A DNA stretch of 53,966 nt from Deltaproteobacteria bacterium (GCA_026388415.1 JAPLJV010000055.1:1-53966); one strand, 5' to 3'; positions 28,822 through 45,553 are shown, counted from the first letter of the stretch. Numbers and translations: made by a program. The notes: generated by a model not told the origin, from the sequence alone.

Positions 28822-29796
28822 ATGCGAATCTTCTCTTTTCCACTCATCATAATTATTATTTGTTTTGTACAATCATGCGCAATGCCTGATAAGGCGAAGG
28901 TTAAGGTTGTTGGTACGCAACAGGTGCAAGTCAGTAGAGTGTTAACGGATGAAGCTTCTTCAAAGTATCTAAAGAGAAAAGTTGCTATAGCGCGATTTAC
29001 TAACGAAACTAAATATGGGCGAAGTTTTTTCTCTGATGGAAAAGATGAAAATGTTGGCAAACAGGCTACGGATATTCTCTCAGCAAAGTTAGCAGCAACA
29101 AACAAATTTTTACTCCTCGAACGCTCCGATATTGAAAAGACATTTAGTGAAATGAAACTGAAGATAGCTCGGGATGAACTCTCAGAGCTTCATCTATCGG
29201 CTGATTACCTTATCATAGGTTCAATATCTGAATTGGGCAGAAGGGAAGTTGGCGAAGTAGGTGTTTTCAGCCGCTCCAAAAAACAGACCGCATATTGCAA
29301 AGTAAACGTGAGGTTGATTGATGTACATACGGGGGAAATCGTTTATTCCGAGGAAGGTTCTGGCGAAGCATTCTCTGAAGTAGGGTCTGTCATGGGGCTC
29401 GGTGGACGAGCAGGGTATGACTATACCCTAAATGACAAGGTAATTTCCGCTGCCATATCAAAGCTTGTCAACAATATCATCGAAAATCTTCTGGATAAAC
29501 CGTGGCGATCATACATTCTTTCATATGATGGAAGTTTCTACTTTACAGCTGGCGGAAAATCACAAGGAATTGCCAAGGGCGATATTTTTGAGGTTTTTCA
29601 GAGAGGTAATAAAGTCAAAAATCCCCAAACCGGAATAATGATAGAATTACCTGGGCGGTTGATTGGAAAAATCAAAGTGGAGAACATGATGGGCAACACC
29701 TCGGCCGATGAAGTATCGATGTGTTCCCGAGTATCAGGCAATCTTCCCAATGAAAGATTAGATCAGCTCTATGTTCAGGAAATGGGCAGGAAATAA
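28822..29796 (+). CDS. CsgG/HfaB-family outer-membrane lipoprotein
   Basis: The 324-residue protein has a lipoprotein signal (hydrophobic IFSFPLIIIIICFV and Cys19 in QSC). CsgG-domain features follow: KRKVAIARFTNETKYGRSFF, ATDILSAKLAATNKFLLLERSDIEKTFSEM, ADYLIIGSISELGRREVGEVGVFSRSKKQTAYCKVNVRLIDVHTGEIVYSEEGSGEA. CsgG forms a nonameric outer-membrane secretion pore in curli systems; relatives occur with DUF4810 and GNA1162-type lipoproteins. No curlin or CsgE/F is nearby, so curli itself is unlikely. Base composition is clearly more AT-rich than rimO or yacP on either side, suggesting acquisition. Confidence 0.88.
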   Translation: MRIFSFPLIIIIICFVQSCAMPDKAKVKVVGTQQVQVSRVLTDEASSKYLKRKVAIARFTNETKYGRSFFSDGKDENVGKQATDILSAKLAATNKFLLLERSDIEKTFSEMKLKIARDELSELHLSADYLIIGSISELGRREVGEVGVFSRSKKQTAYCKVNVRLIDVHTGEIVYSEEGSGEAFSEVGSVMGLGGRAGYDYTLNDKVISAAISKLVNNIIENLLDKPWRSYILSYDGSFYFTAGGKSQGIAKGDIFEVFQRGNKVKNPQTGIMIELPGRLIGKIKVENMMGNTSADEVSMCSRVSGNLPNERLDQLYVQEMGRK

Positions 29797-29812
29797 ACTT
29801 AAGGAAATAGGA

Positions 29813-30103
29813 ATGAGGTTCGTAGCTTTATTTTTCATAGTGCTTTCCATGACAAGTTGTGCAGCACATCAGGAAGGCATCATCCAGCAAGCGGACAGAA
29901 GCTATATTATGTTTACTGGCAATGTAAAGGGAGTCACAGTTCAAATTGATGACGAACAGCCTTTTCCGTTAGCAGTGGAGAAGGCTATATATCAGGTGAA
30001 ACCTGGAAAACATACGGTAAAAGCTTTTCGAGGGGATGTACTCATTGTAAAAAGGCTCTTGTTCCTTGATAATCAGGTGACTATGGAGCTACTAATTCAA
30101 TGA
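29813..30103 (+). CDS. Small lipoprotein with a PEGA-like domain
   Basis: The 96-residue product starts at ATG 29813, giving a compact lipoprotein signal (RFVALFFIVLSMTSC, Cys16). The rest resembles a PEGA-like beta sandwich: NVKGVTVQIDDEQPFPL...YQVKPGKHTVKAFRGD and a strand-rich end. I infer the fold from the G-x-x-V-x-I-D and PG-x-H-x-V pattern only. It lies 16 bp after the CsgG-like gene and overlaps the next lipoprotein gene by ATGA. It is an additional member compared with the common three-gene arrangement. Confidence 0.75.
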   Translation: MRFVALFFIVLSMTSCAAHQEGIIQQADRSYIMFTGNVKGVTVQIDDEQPFPLAVEKAIYQVKPGKHTVKAFRGDVLIVKRLLFLDNQVTMELLIQ

Positions 30104-30462
30104 AAGTATTTTTATCTTGCTCACTTATCGTTCTTTTCTTCTTAAACGGGTGTGCACCTGTGGTAGCGAATACCCCCAAGTATTATTGGGGTAATTATTC
30201 CCAGGCACTATATAAGAATAAGAAGGATCATACACCTGAAAGCTATCAGAACTACAAAAACGCTCTTGCTAAAATCGTGGAAATATCTAAGGCAGGTGTT
30301 TTTTTAGTGCCACCTGGCATTTATTCTGAGTACGGATTCATCCTTGCTCAGGAAGGAAAACTTGACGAAGCTAAAGTTTATTTCGCCTTGGAAAAGGAAA
30401 AATACCCTGAGTCAACAATTTTCGTTGACAGACTTATGAAAGCGACAGGAGGCTCATTATGA
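30100..30462 (+). CDS. DUF4810-like lipoprotein
   Basis: The 120-residue lipoprotein has a signal ending at LNGCAPV (Cys18). The mature part YYWGNYSQALYKNKKDHTPESYQNYKNALAKIVE...VPPGIYSEYGFILAQEGKLDEAKVYFALEKEKYPES is a short TPR-like helical hairpin typical of DUF4810. Such proteins are found between CsgG-like and GNA1162-like lipoproteins in other proteobacteria and Neisseria. It overlaps both neighbours by four bases, indicating coupled translation. Function unknown. Confidence 0.82.
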   Translation: MKVFLSCSLIVLFFLNGCAPVVANTPKYYWGNYSQALYKNKKDHTPESYQNYKNALAKIVEISKAGVFLVPPGIYSEYGFILAQEGKLDEAKVYFALEKEKYPESTIFVDRLMKATGGSL

Positions 30463-31160
30463 AGACCTTTAAACTTTCTCCTCTCGTTCTGTGTATATTA
30501 CTCTTAGCGGGCTGTGGGCCTAAACTGATCACTAAAGGTGATGCTTACCCTGGTCATTACAGGGAAGCCCCCCTTTCAATTCTCGTTTTACCCGCAATCA
30601 ATGAGTCAACGGCGGCGGATGCGAAGGATTTTTACTCCACAACGGTTGCGGAACCTCTCGCCTTTGCAGGCTATTATGTTTTTCCTCTAGAAGTAGTCAC
30701 AGAGATATTGAAAAAAGAGGGTCTCGCAGATACGGAAACACTAATGAATGTTCCCCAAAAAAAATTTAAGGAGTATTTCGGAGCCGATGCAGTTCTGTAT
30801 GTCAAGATTCTAAAATGGGACACGTTCTACTTTGTTATAGGAGGTAATGTGACTGTTGGCATCGAATGTGAGCTGAAATCAACTACCACGGGGGACCTGA
30901 TTTGGAGGTATAATGGCAGCTTAACATTGGATACTACAGCGGAAGATCGAAATGTTGGATCTCCCATTGCGAGCTTAATTGTAAAATTGGTTGAAACAGC
31001 CGTCAAGACAGCTGTAACAGATTATGTTCCTATTGCAAAGAGGGTAAATTATATGGTGACGTCATCAATGCCCTTCGGCAAATACCATAAGCTGCACGGT
31101 AAGGATCAAGGATTAAACGTTTTGGAAGATAAAGTTAAACCAAAAGAGCAGAAAAAGTAG
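30459..31160 (+). CDS. GNA1162/DUF799-like lipoprotein
   Basis: The 233-residue lipoprotein (Cys19 in LLAGCGP) has the DUF799 pattern: APLSILVLPAINESTAADAKDFYSTTVAEPLAFAGYYVFPLEVVTEILKKEGL, then KKFKEYFGADAVLYVKILKWDTFYFVIGGNVTVGIECELKSTTTGDLIWR. GNA1162 of Neisseria has a TolB-N-terminal-like fold. The C-terminal about 30 residues are lysine-rich. It is last in the operon and followed by a strong terminator. It presumably assembles with the CsgG-like protein at the outer membrane. Confidence 0.85.
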   Translation: MKTFKLSPLVLCILLLAGCGPKLITKGDAYPGHYREAPLSILVLPAINESTAADAKDFYSTTVAEPLAFAGYYVFPLEVVTEILKKEGLADTETLMNVPQKKFKEYFGADAVLYVKILKWDTFYFVIGGNVTVGIECELKSTTTGDLIWRYNGSLTLDTTAEDRNVGSPIASLIVKLVETAVKTAVTDYVPIAKRVNYMVTSSMPFGKYHKLHGKDQGLNVLEDKVKPKEQKK

Positions 31161-38524: not shown

Positions 38525-38879
38525 GGGGGCGTCACGGTTTCGACGGGGATAGTTGAAGCTGTAGCAGCGTACCGAGGTTCCTACAGGCCTCGTTAAACAG
38601 GTAGGACAATATAATCGCAGACAACTACGATTACGCTTTAGCCGCTTAGTCGGCTAACGGTCTCCTGGACCCGCCTGTCGGTTCAGATGAGGGCGTCATA
38701 AAGGCAGTATAGCCACTTCCCTCTTTTCCCGGAGAGGGCGGGGCGAATCAAAACGGGATAGCGCCTAATCAATCCTGACTCTGGGAGTTTTCGGGGGCGA
38801 AATCAAATCAGAGTCTATGTACGTAGAAACTGCAGTGGAATATTTTCGGACGCGGGTTCGACTCCCGCCGCCTCCACCA
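38525..38879 (+). ncRNA. ssrA: Transfer-messenger RNA (tmRNA)
   Basis: The 5' end GGGGGCGTCACGGTTTCGACGGGGAT and the 3' T-arm and acceptor GGGTTCGACTCCCGCCGCCTCCACCA are both intact and pair as the alanyl acceptor stem. The tag frame starts at GCA 38617 and stops at TAG 38647-38649, giving ADNYDYALAA. The RNA rescues stalled ribosomes with SmpB. The 3' end contains the 27-bp core att site used by two elements. No terminator follows directly; the likely native one is now 5.2 kb away at 44158. Confidence 0.97.
38853..38879. other. Attachment site, left copy (attL core in ssrA)
   Basis: 27 bp, CGGGTTCGACTCCCGCCGCC plus TCCACCA, the T-arm and 3' end of ssrA. It is identical to 44098-44124. The pair bounds the 5.2-kb island. 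Confidence 0.93.
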
Positions 38880-38881
38880 AT

Positions 38882-40054
38882 TTAGTTATTAAATATCAAT
38901 ATGTTAGCTGCATCAGCCTGCTCCTTTTCCTGGTGCAGTTTTGGTGCAGTTGTTTTCCTGTAAACCATTCTCAAATCTTCCGCCTCTATCCTGAAATATC
39001 TTTCAAATGCTTTATTCGTGGAATGCATTGTTGCCCGTTTTATTTCCTCGGGAGTGCAATATTGCCTTAACGCCCTTGCCGAACTATGTCTTGTGCCGCC
39101 ATAGAGGTCAACACCGGTAATCCCTATATTTTCGCATGCTCTGCACCACCATTTATAAAAGTATTTTTCCCCGAATGGCTCACCTTCACACACACCGCTA
39201 ACGCCTTTATTATGACGGAAAAAGTGTAAAGATGGGATTGCCGCTGGGAAGGTCTTTAATATTTCAACGTCCTCTTCCAATATGGGCACAAGCTTCGGTT
39301 TTTTCTCTTTAGGGTGCGGGAACAATAAATAACCATTCCCCTTGTCGATATCGCCTTCCTTAAGGCTTATCATTTCGCCAGGGCGGATTGATATGTACAT
39401 GCATAAGAATTTAATGCCCAAGTATATCTTAGGATTGATATGGTAGCTAATTCTATGCACCTCTTGAAGGATTGCTTCTTGTTCCTCTTTTGAAATAACT
39501 TTCCTATAGCCCAACTCAAAAGATATTTCCGGGAACTCCGGTATTTGCTGAATGGTTATAACTTTTCTTTTTCGCAACCACGACCAAAAGTCTGTGAGGC
39601 ATGATTTCATGTTAGATTTCGTCTTGTCAGAAACCTTTTGTGACAAGAAAAAATCTTCCAGGTCAGCATAGCCAATTTCCTTGATATTCTTTTGACCGAA
39701 ACGGTCAATGGCCCGTGAGATGTAATTATTTAAGTTGTTATAGGTCTTAGGGCGGACATTTTGCTTTTTGATTCCAAGCCACTGCGTAGCAAGGGTAACA
39801 AACCCTAGAGGATTGTCCTCTTTATAGTCCCTCGCATCAAAGCTGCCTTCATCTATTTTATATCTTAACCCTGTTAAAAACCTGTGAGCTTCGTCATAGT
39901 TCTTGAATCTACGCCATACGCCCTTAATTTTAACAAAGAGCCTTGTTGCTTTCTGTTGGGGGTGTTCAGGGCACTGCACTCCGCTTTTTCCATTGTCTTT
40001 GAGAGGTTTTCCGCAGATAGGGCATTTTTGATTAGTGTAAATTCCGCCAAGCAT
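38882..40054 (-). CDS. Tyrosine integrase with N-terminal zinc ribbon
   Basis: The 390-residue recombinase starts at ATG 40054, with GGGGGAG 8 nt upstream; the frame stays open 22 codons higher without such a signal. Residues about 9-32 form a zinc ribbon (CPICGKPLKDNGKSGVQCPEHP). A SAM-like core-binding domain and the catalytic domain follow: Arg in ISIRPGEMISL, TRHSSARAL and the nucleophile Tyr in HSTNKAFERYFRI. Its stop codon lies three bases inside the island from the att core. It is the integrase that most likely inserted this island. Confidence 0.9.
   Translation of the reverse strand: MLGGIYTNQKCPICGKPLKDNGKSGVQCPEHPQQKATRLFVKIKGVWRRFKNYDEAHRFLTGLRYKIDEGSFDARDYKEDNPLGFVTLATQWLGIKKQNVRPKTYNNLNNYISRAIDRFGQKNIKEIGYADLEDFFLSQKVSDKTKSNMKSCLTDFWSWLRKRKVITIQQIPEFPEISFELGYRKVISKEEQEAILQEVHRISYHINPKIYLGIKFLCMYISIRPGEMISLKEGDIDKGNGYLLFPHPKEKKPKLVPILEEDVEILKTFPAAIPSLHFFRHNKGVSGVCEGEPFGEKYFYKWWCRACENIGITGVDLYGGTRHSSARALRQYCTPEEIKRATMHSTNKAFERYFRIEAEDLRMVYRKTTAPKLHQEKEQADAANILIFNN
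38932..38949. repeat. Paired GGTGCA direct repeat near attL
   Basis: GGTGCAGTTTTGGTGCAG lies within the integrase 3' coding region, 53 bp from the core. A near copy (GGTGCACTTTTGGTGCA) is 38 bp outside the core at the other end (44044-44060) in the same orientation. Candidate arm-type binding sites for the integrase. Confidence 0.4.
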
Positions 40055-40152
40055 ACACAGTTCTCCCCCTTTATGGTTACAGAGAGAAATATCATGTCCG
40101 GCAGAAAAACTCAATTTCAATACTCCAGAAAGTTTCTTGTAATTTAATATCG

Positions 40153-41172
40153 TTAAAACGGCACCCCTTCAACGCCCTGGGCCATGTCAATATATTTAAT
40201 AATCTTGTCGATTGTCCGTTTTTCAATAAAGATAAAGAATTTATTATACTGAGTCTTCAGCATTGTTCCGAAATGCTTACGTCTTTTCTTGACTAGTTTT
40301 CTCAGGCATCGCTTTAATAAAACCATGTCTTTCGTCGTCATTTCTATTTGCAGGCCTTCACCTTCACGGGGATCACCGACTTTCCCCCAATTTCGTCCTA
40401 TGCTCTCATCAGTCACAAAGCCGTCATGCTTGACGATGTACTTACTCATATAAATCTGCATTTGTTTTCTTGATTGGATGAGCCGAGAGCTTTTATGATG
40501 AAGGGCGACCGCGAGAGCCTTATCTTGCAATTGAGTCCCAGTTATTTTCACCCACCGCACTGCCAGTTTCTTAATGATCAAATTATACATATCTTGATCT
40601 GCATTCGGCACAGAATAGACCATATGATAATGGGGAACGTAATGTCCCTTTAACGCCCCTGATTTTCTTTTTTGCCATTCCTTTTTCCAGACACCATTTA
40701 TCTCCAGGCCGTATCTCACAGACCAGTGTTTAAGCTTCCAGAGGCAATAAGAAGCGAGCTTAGCCTTTTCCTTGATCGTCTTTCCCTCCATAATGTCATC
40801 GGCAAAAGTGAAGTCCTGCCAGACCTCAAAAGGATCGTCCATTTTAGCCATAGTCACCATCATATTACGCCTAGACTTGTTAGAAAAATCAGTTACCGGC
40901 CCGCGCTTACCAACATTAAGATTTCCGCCCTCTACAAAATCACCATATCTTGTCTTAGCCCTATTTCGTACTAGAGTAACGCCTCCATAAACTATTAAAT
41001 GCTCATCTAACTCACTGTTAATATTATCATGTATTAATATGTCACTTATACAAGCATGACCGTTGCCATCTGGTTCTAATTCGTTATCGTAATCTTTAAC
41101 TGCTTTTCTCTCAAACGTCAGTGGTCCGTTTGAGGGAAAAGCAGAAACACGCCCCCTGTAAACTGTCTCCAT
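40153..41172 (-). CDS. HUH rolling-circle replication initiator (Rep)
   Basis: The 339-residue protein has the HUH endonuclease signature: HYVPHYHMVYS (His-Tyr-His at about 181-183) for metal binding, and about 58 residues later IYMSKYIVK with two tyrosines (about 241 and 245), one being the nucleophile that nicks the origin. The N-terminal part has VTMAKMDDPFEVWQDFTF, a possible FTLT-like motif 1. It resembles Rep proteins of small rolling-circle plasmids and phages; no relaxase accessory domain is visible. ATG 41172 with an AGGAGG 12-14 nt upstream. Confidence 0.85.
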   Translation of the reverse strand: METVYRGRVSAFPSNGPLTFERKAVKDYDNELEPDGNGHACISDILIHDNINSELDEHLIVYGGVTLVRNRAKTRYGDFVEGGNLNVGKRGPVTDFSNKSRRNMMVTMAKMDDPFEVWQDFTFADDIMEGKTIKEKAKLASYCLWKLKHWSVRYGLEINGVWKKEWQKRKSGALKGHYVPHYHMVYSVPNADQDMYNLIIKKLAVRWVKITGTQLQDKALAVALHHKSSRLIQSRKQMQIYMSKYIVKHDGFVTDESIGRNWGKVGDPREGEGLQIEMTTKDMVLLKRCLRKLVKKRRKHFGTMLKTQYNKFFIFIEKRTIDKIIKYIDMAQGVEGVPF

Positions 41173-41248
41173 CAAAATAAAAAACCTCCTTTCTTTTCAT
41201 ATCGTCCTATCGCTGTTTTAACAGCTTAATTTTCTTAAATATCTAAGA

Positions 41249-41635
41249 TTATTTCTTGTTTTCTTCATCTTTCCGCCTATACATCATGAAATTGTGGATT
41301 AAATTTTCTTCTAATATTTCCAGCTCCTTATCTGATTTATCGCTATATAACTTGTAAAAAACTGTATTAATGGCATCCGTTAACAAATCGGTTGCTATGC
41401 TTGTCCTGCTAATTTTCCATCTATCGGACAGGTGATCTAGAATAGCCATGTTCAATACACTCATTCTAAGGGTCATCGAAACAAGGGTAAGGTCTATAAA
41501 CTTTTTCAAAACATCCGATGCTCTTTCCTTTTGCCTAATGTATTCGTCAATTGAATCTCTGCCTTTATGATCATCGACAATGAGTTTTTTAGGCGTGTAC
41601 TTCCTTGGTTTCTTTTCTGTTTGCTTCATCGTCAT
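41249..41635 (-). CDS. Small basic, possibly ribbon-helix-helix protein
   Basis: The 128-residue protein has a Lys/Arg-rich N-terminus (MKQTEKKPRKYTPKKLIV), then LDHLSDRWKISRTSIATDLLTDAINTVF, a pattern like the helix pair of ribbon-helix-helix or Arc-type DNA-binding proteins, and a charged C-terminus. GAGGAG upstream of the start. It precedes rep in the same direction and follows the hairpin at 41751, so it may be a copy-control or origin-binding factor. No firm family assignment. Confidence 0.7.
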   Translation of the reverse strand: MTMKQTEKKPRKYTPKKLIVDDHKGRDSIDEYIRQKERASDVLKKFIDLTLVSMTLRMSVLNMAILDHLSDRWKISRTSIATDLLTDAINTVFYKLYSDKSDKELEILEENLIHNFMMYRRKDEENKK

Positions 41636-41750
41636 TTCATCTCCTCACAATTACAAAATGTAATCTTTTAAATTACAATAATAAACTTGTTTCTTTATTG
41701 CAAGCTTTTTTTGCAACGGTAGAAACTCCCTCTCCTTGCCATGTTACAAT

Positions 41751-41828
41751 AGCACGAGCGCTGCATCTGTAAAGGTTTCCCTTCGGCTCGCTTCGCTCGA
41801 CCTTGACAGAAGCGGCTTTACTCGTGCT
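41751..41828. other. 78-bp imperfect hairpin, candidate rolling-circle origin
   Basis: The region 41636-41941 holds no gene. At its centre AGCACGAG (41751-41758) pairs with CTCGTGCT (41821-41828). Inside are matching segments GCT..TCTGT..AGGT and ACCT..ACAGA..AGC, with a GGCTCGCTTCGCTCGACC core. A large cruciform next to rep is typical of double-strand or single-strand origins of rolling-circle replicons. It could instead be the 3' end structure of the Vsr module. Confidence 0.5.
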
Positions 41829-41941
41829 TAATGGAAATCAGGCGACGGTGGGAGGGTAGGCAACAACACAGCTCCGATAAAAGGGTATTTATGTGTCTTT
41901 TGCCTTAGAGCGTTACTTTGTTGTGAGGTTTTCGAGAAGAT

Positions 41942-42358
41942 TTAAGTGGCTAGGAATGACAGGATTATTTGTTCAAGGGCGAGCTTGTCCCGGGTCTGGC
42001 ATTCCCAAATAACTAGGATGCTCCAGCCCTCTGCTTTTAACGCAGCTTCATTTTCTGCATCTCGTACTTGATTTCGCACGAGTTTGGGCTGCCAATAATC
42101 TGCATTTGATTTCGGTTTCCGTGCGTCTTTACAGAACGGATCAGGGTGTTGATGCCAGAAGCAGCCATTAACAAAGATTACAGAATGTCTACTATGGAAA
42201 ACCATATCCGGTGTGCCTGGAAGGGATTTACTATGGAGACGGTAGCGGTAGCCCAAACGATGAACCATTCGGCGTACGGCCAATTCTGGTTTCATATCCT
42301 TACTACGAATGGCACTCATGTTTTTACTGCGGCGTTCCGGTGACAGCTTGTCGGTCAA
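41942..42358 (-). CDS. vsr: Very short patch repair endonuclease
   Basis: Vsr nicks 5' of T in T:G mismatches created by deamination of 5-methylcytosine. The 138-residue protein has the family start SKNMSAIRSKDMKPELAVRRMVHRLGYRYRLH, catalytic LPGTPDMVF and GCFWHQHPDPFC with KSNADYWQPKLVRNQVRDAE, ending WSILVIWECQ. It overlaps the HNH gene by four bases. Its presence with a cytosine-5 methylase is expected. Confidence 0.95.
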   Translation of the reverse strand: MTDKLSPERRSKNMSAIRSKDMKPELAVRRMVHRLGYRYRLHSKSLPGTPDMVFHSRHSVIFVNGCFWHQHPDPFCKDARKPKSNADYWQPKLVRNQVRDAENEAALKAEGWSILVIWECQTRDKLALEQIILSFLAT

Positions 42359-42927
42359 CTCTTACCACCGAATTTCTTACATAGCCAATCATAAACGGCT
42401 CGTTGCTCATCCATACCTGCACGTCTAATCTGCGTCAGTAGCCATATTGTGCTTGGTTTTTCTGTCGTGATATTCTTTGCACCTTGATTACAGTTTGAGC
42501 ATAGAGCACGAAGGTTCGATAATTCGTCTTTGCCGCCATGACTGCGATCAACGATATGCCCTATATGAAGGCGCACTTTACGGCCTGTAGAAGGATCAAC
42601 ATCCCCAGGCGTAAGGCCGCACATCTGACATGTGAATCCATTACGGTCGAGGACTGCGGCCCGAAGACGCGCGGAAATTGAGGTTGAAAACGAAACATTG
42701 TACCTTTCCGGCGGTTGCTCTTGCAATTGATATTGTCCAGGCTTTAAATTGGTGCTGTCAAGATGTGAAAAAATCGGCCAGCCTTCTTGCTCGCGAAGTT
42801 CTCTCAAGCGGCGGCTATATTGAACTGCGCCGTCTGCTGCTGTTTGCAATTCATGGGATTCGATTACTCGCCCAATATTTGCAAGAAGGAATTGGCGTAT
42901 TTTCTCTTTTGAGCCTTTACGAACCAT
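42355..42927 (-). CDS. HNH endonuclease, candidate restriction enzyme
   Basis: The 190-residue protein has an N-terminal helical or winged-helix part (REKIRQFLLANIGRVIESHELQTAA...YSRRLRELREQEGW, like the domain that precedes HNH in several type II enzymes) and a C-terminal HNH domain FTCQMCGLTPGD...HIGHIVDRSHGGKDELSNLRALCSNCNQGAKN with CxxC and CxxC zinc pairs. Its position directly between the methylase and vsr makes it the likely cognate nuclease of the system. Specificity unknown. Confidence 0.88.
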   Translation of the reverse strand: MVRKGSKEKIRQFLLANIGRVIESHELQTAADGAVQYSRRLRELREQEGWPIFSHLDSTNLKPGQYQLQEQPPERYNVSFSTSISARLRAAVLDRNGFTCQMCGLTPGDVDPSTGRKVRLHIGHIVDRSHGGKDELSNLRALCSNCNQGAKNITTEKPSTIWLLTQIRRAGMDEQRAVYDWLCKKFGGKS

Positions 42928-42936
42928 TGAAACCTC

Positions 42937-43953
42937 CTAACCGGTTGCCCTAAATATCTGACGGCTTGTAAGGGCAGAAGCGATACATTTTGCAACAGAA
43001 TGAGCGACCGGAGGCGGAAAAGCATTGCCTACTTGTCGGTAAGCTGGTGTTTTCTTACCTGTGAAAATCCAATCGTCAGGGAAACCTTGAATTCTCGCGA
43101 CCATTGGCACCGTGAGGCGGGGCATGCCAATAAAGTCGTGATCGGGCGGATCATTAGAAATAACAAGCCCGTCAACACCTAAAGCAGCCCAGGCTTTACG
43201 TGCTCTGGTCGGGCCGAGGTCTGGGCCACCGTGTTTCTTAGAACCTCCGACGATTGTCGGCGCTATATCATTCGCCCTTTCTCGCCACGCCGCTGCACCA
43301 TGCCAACCGCGAGACGCCATAAGATCAAAAAGGATTTCCCCAACGGTCAACGGCTTGTGTTTATTCGAGGCAGGCCATTCGAAATGATGTGAAAACTGTT
43401 TACGGATAGCGACGAACACAACACGGGGGCGCAGTTGAGACACTCCATAATCAGAGGCATTCAGCAATTGCCAATCGGTTATGTAGCCAAGTTTTGCTAT
43501 CTGGCCAGACACATATGTCCGGTAGTCGTCAAAAATTGCATCAAAGATGCCACGAACATTTTCAATCATGACGGCACGGGGACGGATTTGGTCAATTAGC
43601 TTGATGGCTGCCGGAAACATATTGCGCTCATCAGCTTTACCAAGTTGTTTTCCAGCTCTGGAAAAGGGTGGGCAGGGTAAACCGCCTGCTAAAAGATCAA
43701 TTCCTTTAAATGGCGCTCCATCAAATATTTCAAGATCTTGTTCAAAAACTTTCCAATTCGGGCGATTGAAGCGCAACGTCTCACAGCAATGATGATCAAT
43801 TTCTACAAGGCCTTGATGATTGAAGCCAGCCTGCTCTAATCCTAGCGCCTGTCCACCTCCACCAGCGCAAAGCTCTAAGGAAGTAAGACCGTTTGTTCTC
43901 ATTTCGTGCCCTTCGTTATGTGGTTGACTCTGATTGTTCATCATTTTCCACAT
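42937..43953 (-). CDS. DNA (cytosine-5-)-methyltransferase
   Basis: The 338-residue C5-methyltransferase has motif I SLELCAGGGGQALGLEQAGF, motif IV GGLPCPPFSRAGKQLG with the catalytic Cys, motif VI MIENVRGIF, motif VIII-like QLRPRVVFVAI, a target-recognition region (about 190-260) and motifs IX-X in MVARIQGFPDDWIFTGKKTPAYRQVGNAFPPPVAHSVAK. It belongs to the Dcm class linked to vsr. It is the first gene of the methylase/HNH/Vsr module and is closest to attR. Confidence 0.95.
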   Translation of the reverse strand: MWKMMNNQSQPHNEGHEMRTNGLTSLELCAGGGGQALGLEQAGFNHQGLVEIDHHCCETLRFNRPNWKVFEQDLEIFDGAPFKGIDLLAGGLPCPPFSRAGKQLGKADERNMFPAAIKLIDQIRPRAVMIENVRGIFDAIFDDYRTYVSGQIAKLGYITDWQLLNASDYGVSQLRPRVVFVAIRKQFSHHFEWPASNKHKPLTVGEILFDLMASRGWHGAAAWRERANDIAPTIVGGSKKHGGPDLGPTRARKAWAALGVDGLVISNDPPDHDFIGMPRLTVPMVARIQGFPDDWIFTGKKTPAYRQVGNAFPPPVAHSVAKCIASALTSRQIFRATG

Positions 43954-44097
43954 TGAAATATATGTAGACGGAGCTTAATATGGATTGATATCTACACTTC
44001 CGTATCGGCTATGTCAAATATGAAGTTCAGAAGAAATGCTTTTGGTGCACTTTTGGTGCATGATGATCATAACTATTTGATTTTACTTGCTGGGGAT
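43954..44097. other. Right end of the island, no gene seen
   Basis: AT-rich stretch upstream of the methylase gene. It must contain the methylase promoter on the minus strand and the GGTGCACTTTTGGTGCA repeat (44044-44060). No RNA gene or reading frame with a start signal is visible. Confidence 0.5.
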
Positions 44098-44124
44098 CGG
44101 GTTCGACTCCCGCCGCCTCCACCA
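44098..44124. other. Attachment site, right copy (attR core)
   Basis: Perfect 27-bp copy of the ssrA 3' end (compare 38853-38879). Only the T-arm and CCA end are present, not the full tmRNA. Confidence 0.93.
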
Positions 44125-44184: not shown

Positions 44185-44303
44185 TTGATTTTTATCCAGA
44201 AACGTGCTATGTAATTCATCAACGTCCCGTTGTTTTGGGGGCCTTTTGAACAGTAGAAAGCCCCCAAGGAAAATTGGAAGCCCCCAAAAGGGAGGAAATC
44301 GAG

Positions 44304-45553
44304 ATGCCAAAAAGGATTGCGCCGTTATCTGAGGTCAAGGTTCGTAACACTAAATCGCAGGAAAACGAGTACAAGCTTTTTGATGGCGGTGGCTTATTTC
44401 TTTTGGTCACACCCTCGGGGGGAAAACTGTGGAATTTAAAATACCGCTTTGAAGGCAAGGAGAAAAAACTTGCCCTTGGAACATATCCTGAAATCAGCCT
44501 TGCCGATGCCAGAGAGAGAAGAGATAAAGCGAGAAGACAGCTTGCAAATGGCATTGATCCTCGGGCTGTTAGAAAAGCCCAGAAACAGGCAGACACCGCC
44601 GAAACGGAAACCTTTGAAGTGATAGCCCGTGAATGGCATACGAGATTTAGACCTACATGGTCGCCAGGGCATAGTGTTACAATCATGAGCCGTCTGGAAC
44701 GTGATTTATTCCCTTGGATAGGCGCGCGCCCAATTGCTGCAATAAAAGCACCTGAATTGCTGGCGGTATTACGCCGTGTGGAAAGCCGGGGGGCGTGGAA
44801 TCAGCTCACCGCATAAGGACTACTGCCGGTCAGGTTTTTCAATATGCCGTTGCCACAGGGAGGGCGGAGCGAGACCCGGCAACTGATCTGCGTGGAGCAT
44901 TGCCGCAGCCGATGGAAAAACACCAAGCAGCGCTAACGGACCCGAAAGACGTTGCTTCACTTCTTCGGGCAATAGACGCATACAAGGGCACATTTGTCGT
45001 CAAGTGCGCTCTTCAACTGGCGGCGCTGTCATTTGTTCGGCCCGGTGAACTTAGGGGAGGGGAATGGTCATAAATAAACCTTGAAACAGCAGAATGGAAT
45101 ATACCCATTGAGCGCATGAAATTACAACTGAAGATAAAACAGGAACGGAAAGGGCAGACTCATTTAGTCCCTCTCTCAAATCAGGCCATAGCGATCCTGA
45201 AAGATTTACAACCATTGACCGGCCATAGCCGGTATATTTTCCCCTCACATCGAACACCGTTACGCCCTATGAGTGAGAACGCTATCCTTGCTGCTCTAGG
45301 GGCTATGGGTTACGCCAAGGATGAAATGTCCGGGCATGGCTTCAGGGCTATGGCAAGAACCATCCTTGATGAAGTCTTGCGGGTAAGACCAGATTTCATA
45401 GAACACCAACTTGCTCATGCTGTGAGGGATGTAAACGGGAGGGCGTATAATCGTACGTCCCACCTGGCGGAGCGCCGGAAAATGATGGAGCTTTGGGGAA
45501 ATTACCTGGATGACCTGAAGCAAGGAGCCAAGGTATTACATTTCAAAATATGA
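44304..45553 (+). pseudogene. P4/DUF4102-type tyrosine integrase, broken
   Basis: The arm-binding domain LSEVKVRNTKSQENEYKLFDGGGLFLLVTPSGGKLWNLKYRFEGKEKKLALGTYPEISLADAR and the catalytic parts (RPGELRGGEW, HGFRAMARTILDE, HQLAHAVRDVNGRAYNRTSHLAERRKMM) are all present, but the gene is in three pieces. A one-base loss near 44790-44795, next to a GGGGGG run, shifts the frame; a TAA at 45071-45073 replaces the Glu normally after EWS. ATG 44304 has GGAGG upstream. It would be the integrase of an older element inserted at the same ssrA site; its distal att site is not in the window. Confidence 0.9.

Follow-up and report, generated by a model that had tools for sequence, protein, structure and literature searches.

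We analyzed a 53,966-nt window, contig C55 of the 2.8-Mb genome of an uncultured Syntrophales bacterium for which the named relatives found are Syntrophaceae and deltaproteobacterial metagenome-assembled genomes (MAGs), and focused on a 5,245-bp element inserted at the 3′ end of ssrA, the transfer-messenger RNA (tmRNA) gene (Table 1). The last 27 bases of ssrA are repeated exactly at 44098-44124, i.e., at a spacing of 5245, and this attachment (att) core has only these two matches in the window at ≤3 mismatches and none in shuffled sequences. Between the repeats lie six genes, all open and all on the minus strand, encoding a methylase, an HNH nuclease, a Vsr endonuclease, a small protein, a Rep protein, and an integrase. 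This is the integrative layout of tyrosine recombinases: the integrase gene stands at one end, the att repeats are identical, and the 3′ end of the target is left whole. The initial annotation had proposed a repeat-bounded element with the integrase at one end, an HUH Rep and a hairpin in the middle, a methylase/HNH/Vsr module at the other end, and a composition distinct from its flanks. Repeats, layout, and intact genes were all recovered, as was the shift in composition, with 43.1% GC inside the element and 54.5% in the remaining window sequence that served as reference. The low GC extends past the right end, however, because a decayed P4-type integrase gene (44274-45553), belonging to another insertion, adjoins the right repeat. 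At the DNA level, this relic shares 73% identity with a stretch adjacent to a tRNA-Lys gene on contig C44 (L002) of the same genome, and its position indicates that ssrA was used earlier as an insertion site. Taken together with the comparisons below, the locus very probably holds an integrated rolling-circle replicon that belongs to a small Syntrophales family.

Table 1 Features of the element in ssrA and of its relatives (window positions unless a locus is given).
Feature	Position	Strand	Basis or remark
ssrA (tmRNA), insertion target; left att core formed by its 3′ end	38525-38879	+	ARAGORN, Rfam RF00023
Left att core, 27 bp	38853-38879	+	Exact repeat
Paired TTGGTGCA repeats, candidate integrase arm sites (left)	38931-38948	not assigned	
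Tyrosine integrase, 412 aa	38882-40120	-	PHROG, Pfam, alignment
Rep, 340 aa, predicted HUH initiator, G2P-like	40153-41175	-	Pfam, motifs, predicted fold
Conserved word in rep, candidate double-strand origin nick site	41038-41055	-	GCTTGTATAAGTGACATA
Strong hairpin in rep 5′ region, initially described as origin-like	41100-41144	-	Folding
Small protein, 128 aa, at the position of the relatives’ RHH/CopG-like gene	41249-41635	-	
Structured non-coding stretch, candidate single-strand origin or terminator	41745-41830	-	
Vsr mismatch endonuclease	41942-42358	-	Intact
HNH nuclease, likely restriction enzyme	42355-42927	-	Intact; overlaps vsr gene
C5 cytosine methylase, predicted GCCGGC	42937-43953	-	Intact
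Paired TTGGTGCA repeats, candidate integrase arm sites (right)	44043-44060	not assigned	
Right att core, 27 bp	44098-44124	+	Exact repeat
RHH-rep gap, CAISJV	L012 7586-7760		
RHH-rep gap, fen_1145	L013 3667-3839		
RHH-rep gap, UBA6255	L018 7621-7793		

The same core of small gene, Rep, and integrase was found in four other MAGs, namely CAISJV (L012), UBA6255 (L018), fen_1145 (L013, hereafter fen), and Zod (L014). Across the family, the elements measure 4,701 to 6,634 bp and keep the gene order cargo, small gene, rep, int, and all four relatives are bounded by direct repeats of 26–29 bp. In Zod, these repeats correspond to the end of ssrA and lie beside an intact tmRNA gene; in fen, they correspond to an ssrA-type end, and the ssrA of fen itself was located on a different contig, at its edge. 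The UBA6255 repeats match the end of tRNA-Sec and lie next to a tRNA-Sec gene, while those of CAISJV represent a tRNA-Sec-type end, with no tRNA gene found nearby. Seeking the Rep–integrase pair in related genomes thus yielded the core in four of them, with its own att repeats and with other cargo, which supports the initial claim of an integrating rolling-circle replicon.

The assignment of Rep as an HUH initiator is based on its motifs and predicted fold. The protein displays a PHYH motif with H182 and H184 and the sequence YMSKYIVK at residues 242–249; H182, H184, Y242, K245, Y246, and K249 are invariant across six Rep homologues, which have PHxH, YxxKYxxK, and GRxWG in common. In the AlphaFold model, the core is confident, and residues 1–56 (pLDDT below 50) are predicted to be disordered. 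A Foldseek search of BFVD with this fold gave a best E-value of 4e-12, with ORF2/G2P Reps at 4e-6 and microvirus-type replication proteins also among the matches, and comparison with the PDB gave weak matches to the pMV158 RepB and parvovirus NS1 nuclease domains. By these motifs and this modelled fold, Rep is an HUH initiator, its nicking activity being a prediction. Among 155 Syntrophales genomes searched, no full-length Rep relative was found outside the five element genomes. Partial or distant relatives were also seen: a protein in G390 (L021 6202-7632) with 23% identity to the window’s Rep, encoded near a contig end with a small gene before it, lacking the word described below, and from a host in another part of the phylum; and a 47-residue C-terminal fragment (L089, G037:C58:23477-23617), probably the remnant of another insertion.

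Within the 5′ part of rep, all five elements contain an 18-nt word, GCTTGTATNAGTGACATA, which is one base longer in one of them and has the consensus GCTTGTAT(A/T)AGTGACATA across the compared rep genes. Three observations indicate that this word is conserved as DNA. First, its synonymous sites are frozen: codons in the word are identical in four reps at 5 of 6 positions, vs 8 of 53 for the remaining degenerate residues that these reps share (P 0.0014), and for residues with ≥3 codons the counts are 3 of 4 in the word vs 0 of 31 elsewhere (P 0.0006). Second, a single extra internal base in CAISJV shifts the frame of the preceding part, so that the peptide reads LVLSDI instead of ACISDI while the DNA word is unchanged. 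Third, the word encodes part of the segment of Rep predicted to be disordered. These same observations argue against the alternative that the word is kept for the protein as an ACISDI peptide motif: ACISDI is present in four of the five Reps, but with one of five departing from it through a one-base shift, silent positions held fixed, and a region predicted to lack structure, we consider this explanation improbable. Allowing ≤1 mismatch, the word occurs in the 155 Syntrophales genomes at five places, i.e., four elements and one site in G079, and is therefore confined to element-bearing genomes plus one rep remnant. From this sequence evidence, the word is the likely nick site and a candidate double-strand origin. 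Its CTTG followed by an A/T-rich stretch is reminiscent of the sites nicked by initiators of the phiX174 and pC194 types, a likeness that we take as a lead only. The word also turned up in four IMG/VR contigs. Three of these have a single stretch in common, at the beginning of a ClpC-like phage gene, and no Rep relative lies in the vicinity in any of the four, so we attribute these matches to chance.

The site in G079 belongs to a stretch of about 5.1 kb (G079:C234, L027 4100-9300) located by a prfC-like gene (named from its open reading frame, ORF). This stretch carries integrase, HTH, GIY-YIG-like, and AlbA-like genes, with paired short repeats at either end. Beside the integrase gene, a 73-aa remnant of the rep 5′ region keeps the word with one mismatch. 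Possibly, this element borrows the Rep of a sister element.

An origin-like hairpin in the middle of the element had been put forward initially. The hairpin itself is real, with arms at 41100-41117 and 41127-41144 in which 17 of 18 bp are paired (z about -4 to -5), but the conserved candidate is the word. We rejected the hairpin as the origin itself because its sequence is not common to the relatives and because the word lies outside strong loops except in Zod. Hairpins of other sequence do stand at about the same place and rank 2nd to 29th of about 930–1,300 overlapping windows per element; the one in CAISJV, however, does not outscore shuffled versions of itself. Judging from these folds, the hairpins may plausibly have a positional role close to the origin.

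Next to this shared Rep and word, integrases and targets vary. The window’s integrase matched a PHROG integrase family (4e-27) and Pfam Phage_int_SAM_3 above cut-off, as well as Pfam Phage_integrase at 1e-4, yet under that model’s cut-off; residues R246, R344, H345, H366, and Y375 are kept in four aligned core homologues, save for K at 344 in one. Integrases are 76% identical between the ssrA-type elements fen and Zod and 50% between the tRNA-Sec-type elements CAISJV and UBA6255, vs 23–30% across groups. No such grouping by target is seen for the Reps, which are 34–48% identical between elements, and this difference indicates that modules have been exchanged. The elements of the window, Zod, fen, and UBA6255 each carry paired short direct repeats close to their two ends. 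Zod and fen have the same repeats, and those of the other two differ, which is the pattern expected of integrase arm sites and makes the repeats candidates for such sites. In two further Syntrophales, an integrase of the window’s lineage immediately follows the 3′ end of ssrA, at 67% and 57% identity. In the former (G018, L069 3909-6614), other recombinase-like genes lie alongside, and no Rep gene was found beside the integrase; in the latter, the locus ends at the contig end. In the family-mate G001, other genes directly follow ssrA, with no integrase match among them. Finally, two IMG/VR phage contigs encode this lineage and have an exact copy of the 21-nt ssrA core next to the integrase gene (L091 4953-6203, 56% identical to the window’s integrase; L092 5001-6267, 42%), and such phages could compete for the ssrA site or help there.

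Cargo represents a third variable component. In the window, the three genes of the proposed methylase/HNH/Vsr module are intact and adjacent, and the neighboring methylase and likely endonuclease genes have the arrangement of a type II restriction-modification (R-M) pair, a pairing also found on Acidithiobacillus plasmid pGT2. The methylase aligns without gaps, at 66% identity, with the methylase that accompanies an NgoMIV-family endonuclease on Escherichia coli plasmid pNORD58_4, and the match runs through the expected target-recognition region. NgoMIV cuts GCCGGC, and this match leads us to predict GCCGGC as the target, a specificity derived from the methylase alone; the Dcm-like motif (CCWGG) first suggested is accordingly unlikely and was set aside. 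Unlike on pNORD58_4, no NgoMIV-family endonuclease is the partner here. Instead, the partner is an HNH protein, as on pGT2, whose methylase is equally 66% identical and whose HNH protein is 49% identical to that of the window; the overlap of vsr with the HNH gene distinguishes the window element from these plasmid modules. The HNH protein is likely the restriction enzyme of the pair. No GCCGGC site occurs in the element, which is uninformative because its GC content would predict only about half a site. Two automatic labels were not retained: DruM2 (PADLOC) for the methylase reflects the methylase family only, other Druantia proteins being unmatched, and IscB (NCBIfam) for the HNH protein is far under cut-off and concerns the HNH part only.

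R-M is the only recognized cargo in this copy, as had been stated, but cargo varies across the family. CAISJV carries the same methylase–HNH–Vsr set, with identities to the window of 90% (methylase), 89% (HNH), and 70% (Vsr), compared to 48% for Rep and 23% for the integrase. Zod (L014 3127-5623) encodes Vsr, then a fusion of methylase and PstI/BsuBI-type endonuclease. In fen (L013 4422-5731 and 6077-7001), HicB-like and weakly HicA-like genes are accompanied by ORFs of no assigned function on the opposite strand, and UBA6255 (L018 5788-7050) has a PARP-like protein, a small ORF, and a SecB-like protein, a set reminiscent of toxin-antitoxin-chaperone systems. Core, integrase, and cargo are thus separable, with one ssrA element and one tRNA-Sec-type element carrying nearly the same R-M cargo.

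The remaining candidate control regions lie on either side of the small gene. Between cargo and small gene, the central 62 nt of a structured non-coding stretch are 79% identical between the window and Zod, and unrelated strong hairpins replace it in CAISJV and UBA6255. Between the RHH gene and rep, CAISJV, fen, and UBA6255 have a gap of 70–74% mutual identity, whose terminal hairpin covers the likely rep ribosome site, making copy-number control a possible function.

These features can be assembled into a proposed life cycle. The integrase would excise a 5,245-bp circle and restore ssrA; Rep would then nick its own gene at the word, probably right after GCTTG, and drive rolling-circle replication, with the small gene upstream of rep controlling rep and the structured stretch before the small gene possibly starting second-strand synthesis. 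The circle would re-enter ssrA in a daughter or a new cell. Methylase and HNH protein would act as a type II R-M pair, protecting the host and penalizing cells that lose the element, while Vsr would repair T:G mismatches arising from methylated C. No capsid, conjugation, or relaxase gene was recognized in the element, so that transfer between cells probably needs a helper and would rely on foreign machinery, i.e., a phage particle or conjugation.

Several points weigh against reading the locus as an integrated rolling-circle replicon. The evidence consists of assembled sequence, with only five full family members available, all from MAGs, and the codon tests count related sequences as independent, a fair approximation for reps that are 34–48% identical. 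The Pfam match of Rep (REP_ORF2-G2P) has an E-value of only 0.0026, under cut-off, and the Rep family is without a characterized close relative, with no match in the plasmids, phages, and IMG/VR records searched. Lastly, homology of the window’s small gene to the RHH genes of the relatives was not detected.

How such an element would live can also be read differently. It may be a phage satellite, i.e., a helper-dependent circle replicated after phage infection and packaged in a PICMI-like manner, with R-M directed against competing phages. The narrow size range of 4.7–6.6 kb without transfer genes, the phage contigs sharing the integrase lineage and ssrA core, and the rolling-circle replication and R-M cargo of PICMIs (PMC10803314) all fit this lifestyle; no phage-control or packaging gene or site was recognized, however, and no copy of Rep was present in IMG/VR or the phage records searched, so that we view it as a tentative possibility. 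A stranded defence island, in which integrase and Rep are dead and the host keeps the R-M genes, would be in line with the decayed integrase that also sits at ssrA and with an activity that is predicted from sequence; given that the element’s genes are all open, the att repeats exact, and the catalytic residues and word intact, it appears unlikely. Similarly improbable is a mobilizable element with Rep as relaxase and the word as the nic site of an oriT, transferred by a co-resident conjugative element: relaxases are found among HUH enzymes and some Rep proteins mobilize plasmid DNA (PMC5714925), but no relaxase family or accessory mobilization gene was matched in profile searches, and the fold is closest to phage replication proteins.

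Under the preferred reading of an integrated rolling-circle replicon, the family can be compared to known systems. Integrated pCRESS plasmids are capsid-less, encode HUH Reps, and insert site-specifically in bacterial chromosomes, where direct repeats flank them (Kazlauskas et al. 2019, PMC6668415), all of which recalls the present element. Their Reps, however, are nuclease-helicases similar to those of CRESS-DNA viruses, whereas the element’s Rep comprises the HUH part only, has G2P-like relatives, and gave no superfamily 3 helicase match in Pfam or PHROGs. PICMIs are likewise very small islands with an integrase, rolling-circle replication, and an accessory slot for type I/II R-M and other defence (PMC10803314), but they lie downstream of fis in Vibrionaceae and carry prim; the Syntrophales family occupies ssrA-type and tRNA-Sec-type sites with an HUH Rep, and in the window the target is ssrA and no prim gene was matched. 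In Pf filamentous prophages of Pseudomonas, integrase type tracks the target, including tmRNA and tRNA-Sec, and some carry dcm (PMC7549136). The Syntrophales elements have this association of integrase with target in common with them, while coat, assembly, and secretion genes were not matched, including the inovirus Zot-like morphogenesis ATPase and coat proteins among the six main genes. Actinomycete integrative and conjugative elements of the pSAM2 type (AICEs) combine a tyrosine integrase acting at tRNA 3′ ends with the rolling-circle initiator RepSA, which has an HUH motif (PMC3218068); this pairing is shared, but AICEs have an FtsK/SpoIIIE-type transfer protein, for which the element gave no match.

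Since it departs from each of these systems in a defining feature, we class the element as a variant of integrated rolling-circle elements. The kind is already known, and what is new is this Syntrophales variant and the conserved word in rep. A literature search on integrative elements of Syntrophales returned nothing relevant. The chances seem to us evenly balanced that the five elements represent an undescribed minimal integrative rolling-circle family, with its origin inside its own rep, single exchangeable defence or toxin-antitoxin-like modules, and integrase and target swapped while Rep and origin are kept, and possibly with Rep-less relatives such as the one in G079. Small replicating units may carry single defence systems among syntrophic anaerobes known mostly from MAGs. 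The word also provides a concrete origin candidate for a Rep family whose matches to Pfam models all stay below cut-off, and searching with 17 bases of it retrieved such elements at almost no background. Elsewhere in the window, GC falls to about 41% at 29001-31000, where lipoprotein-like genes (judged from their ORFs) are located, a feature unrelated to the element.

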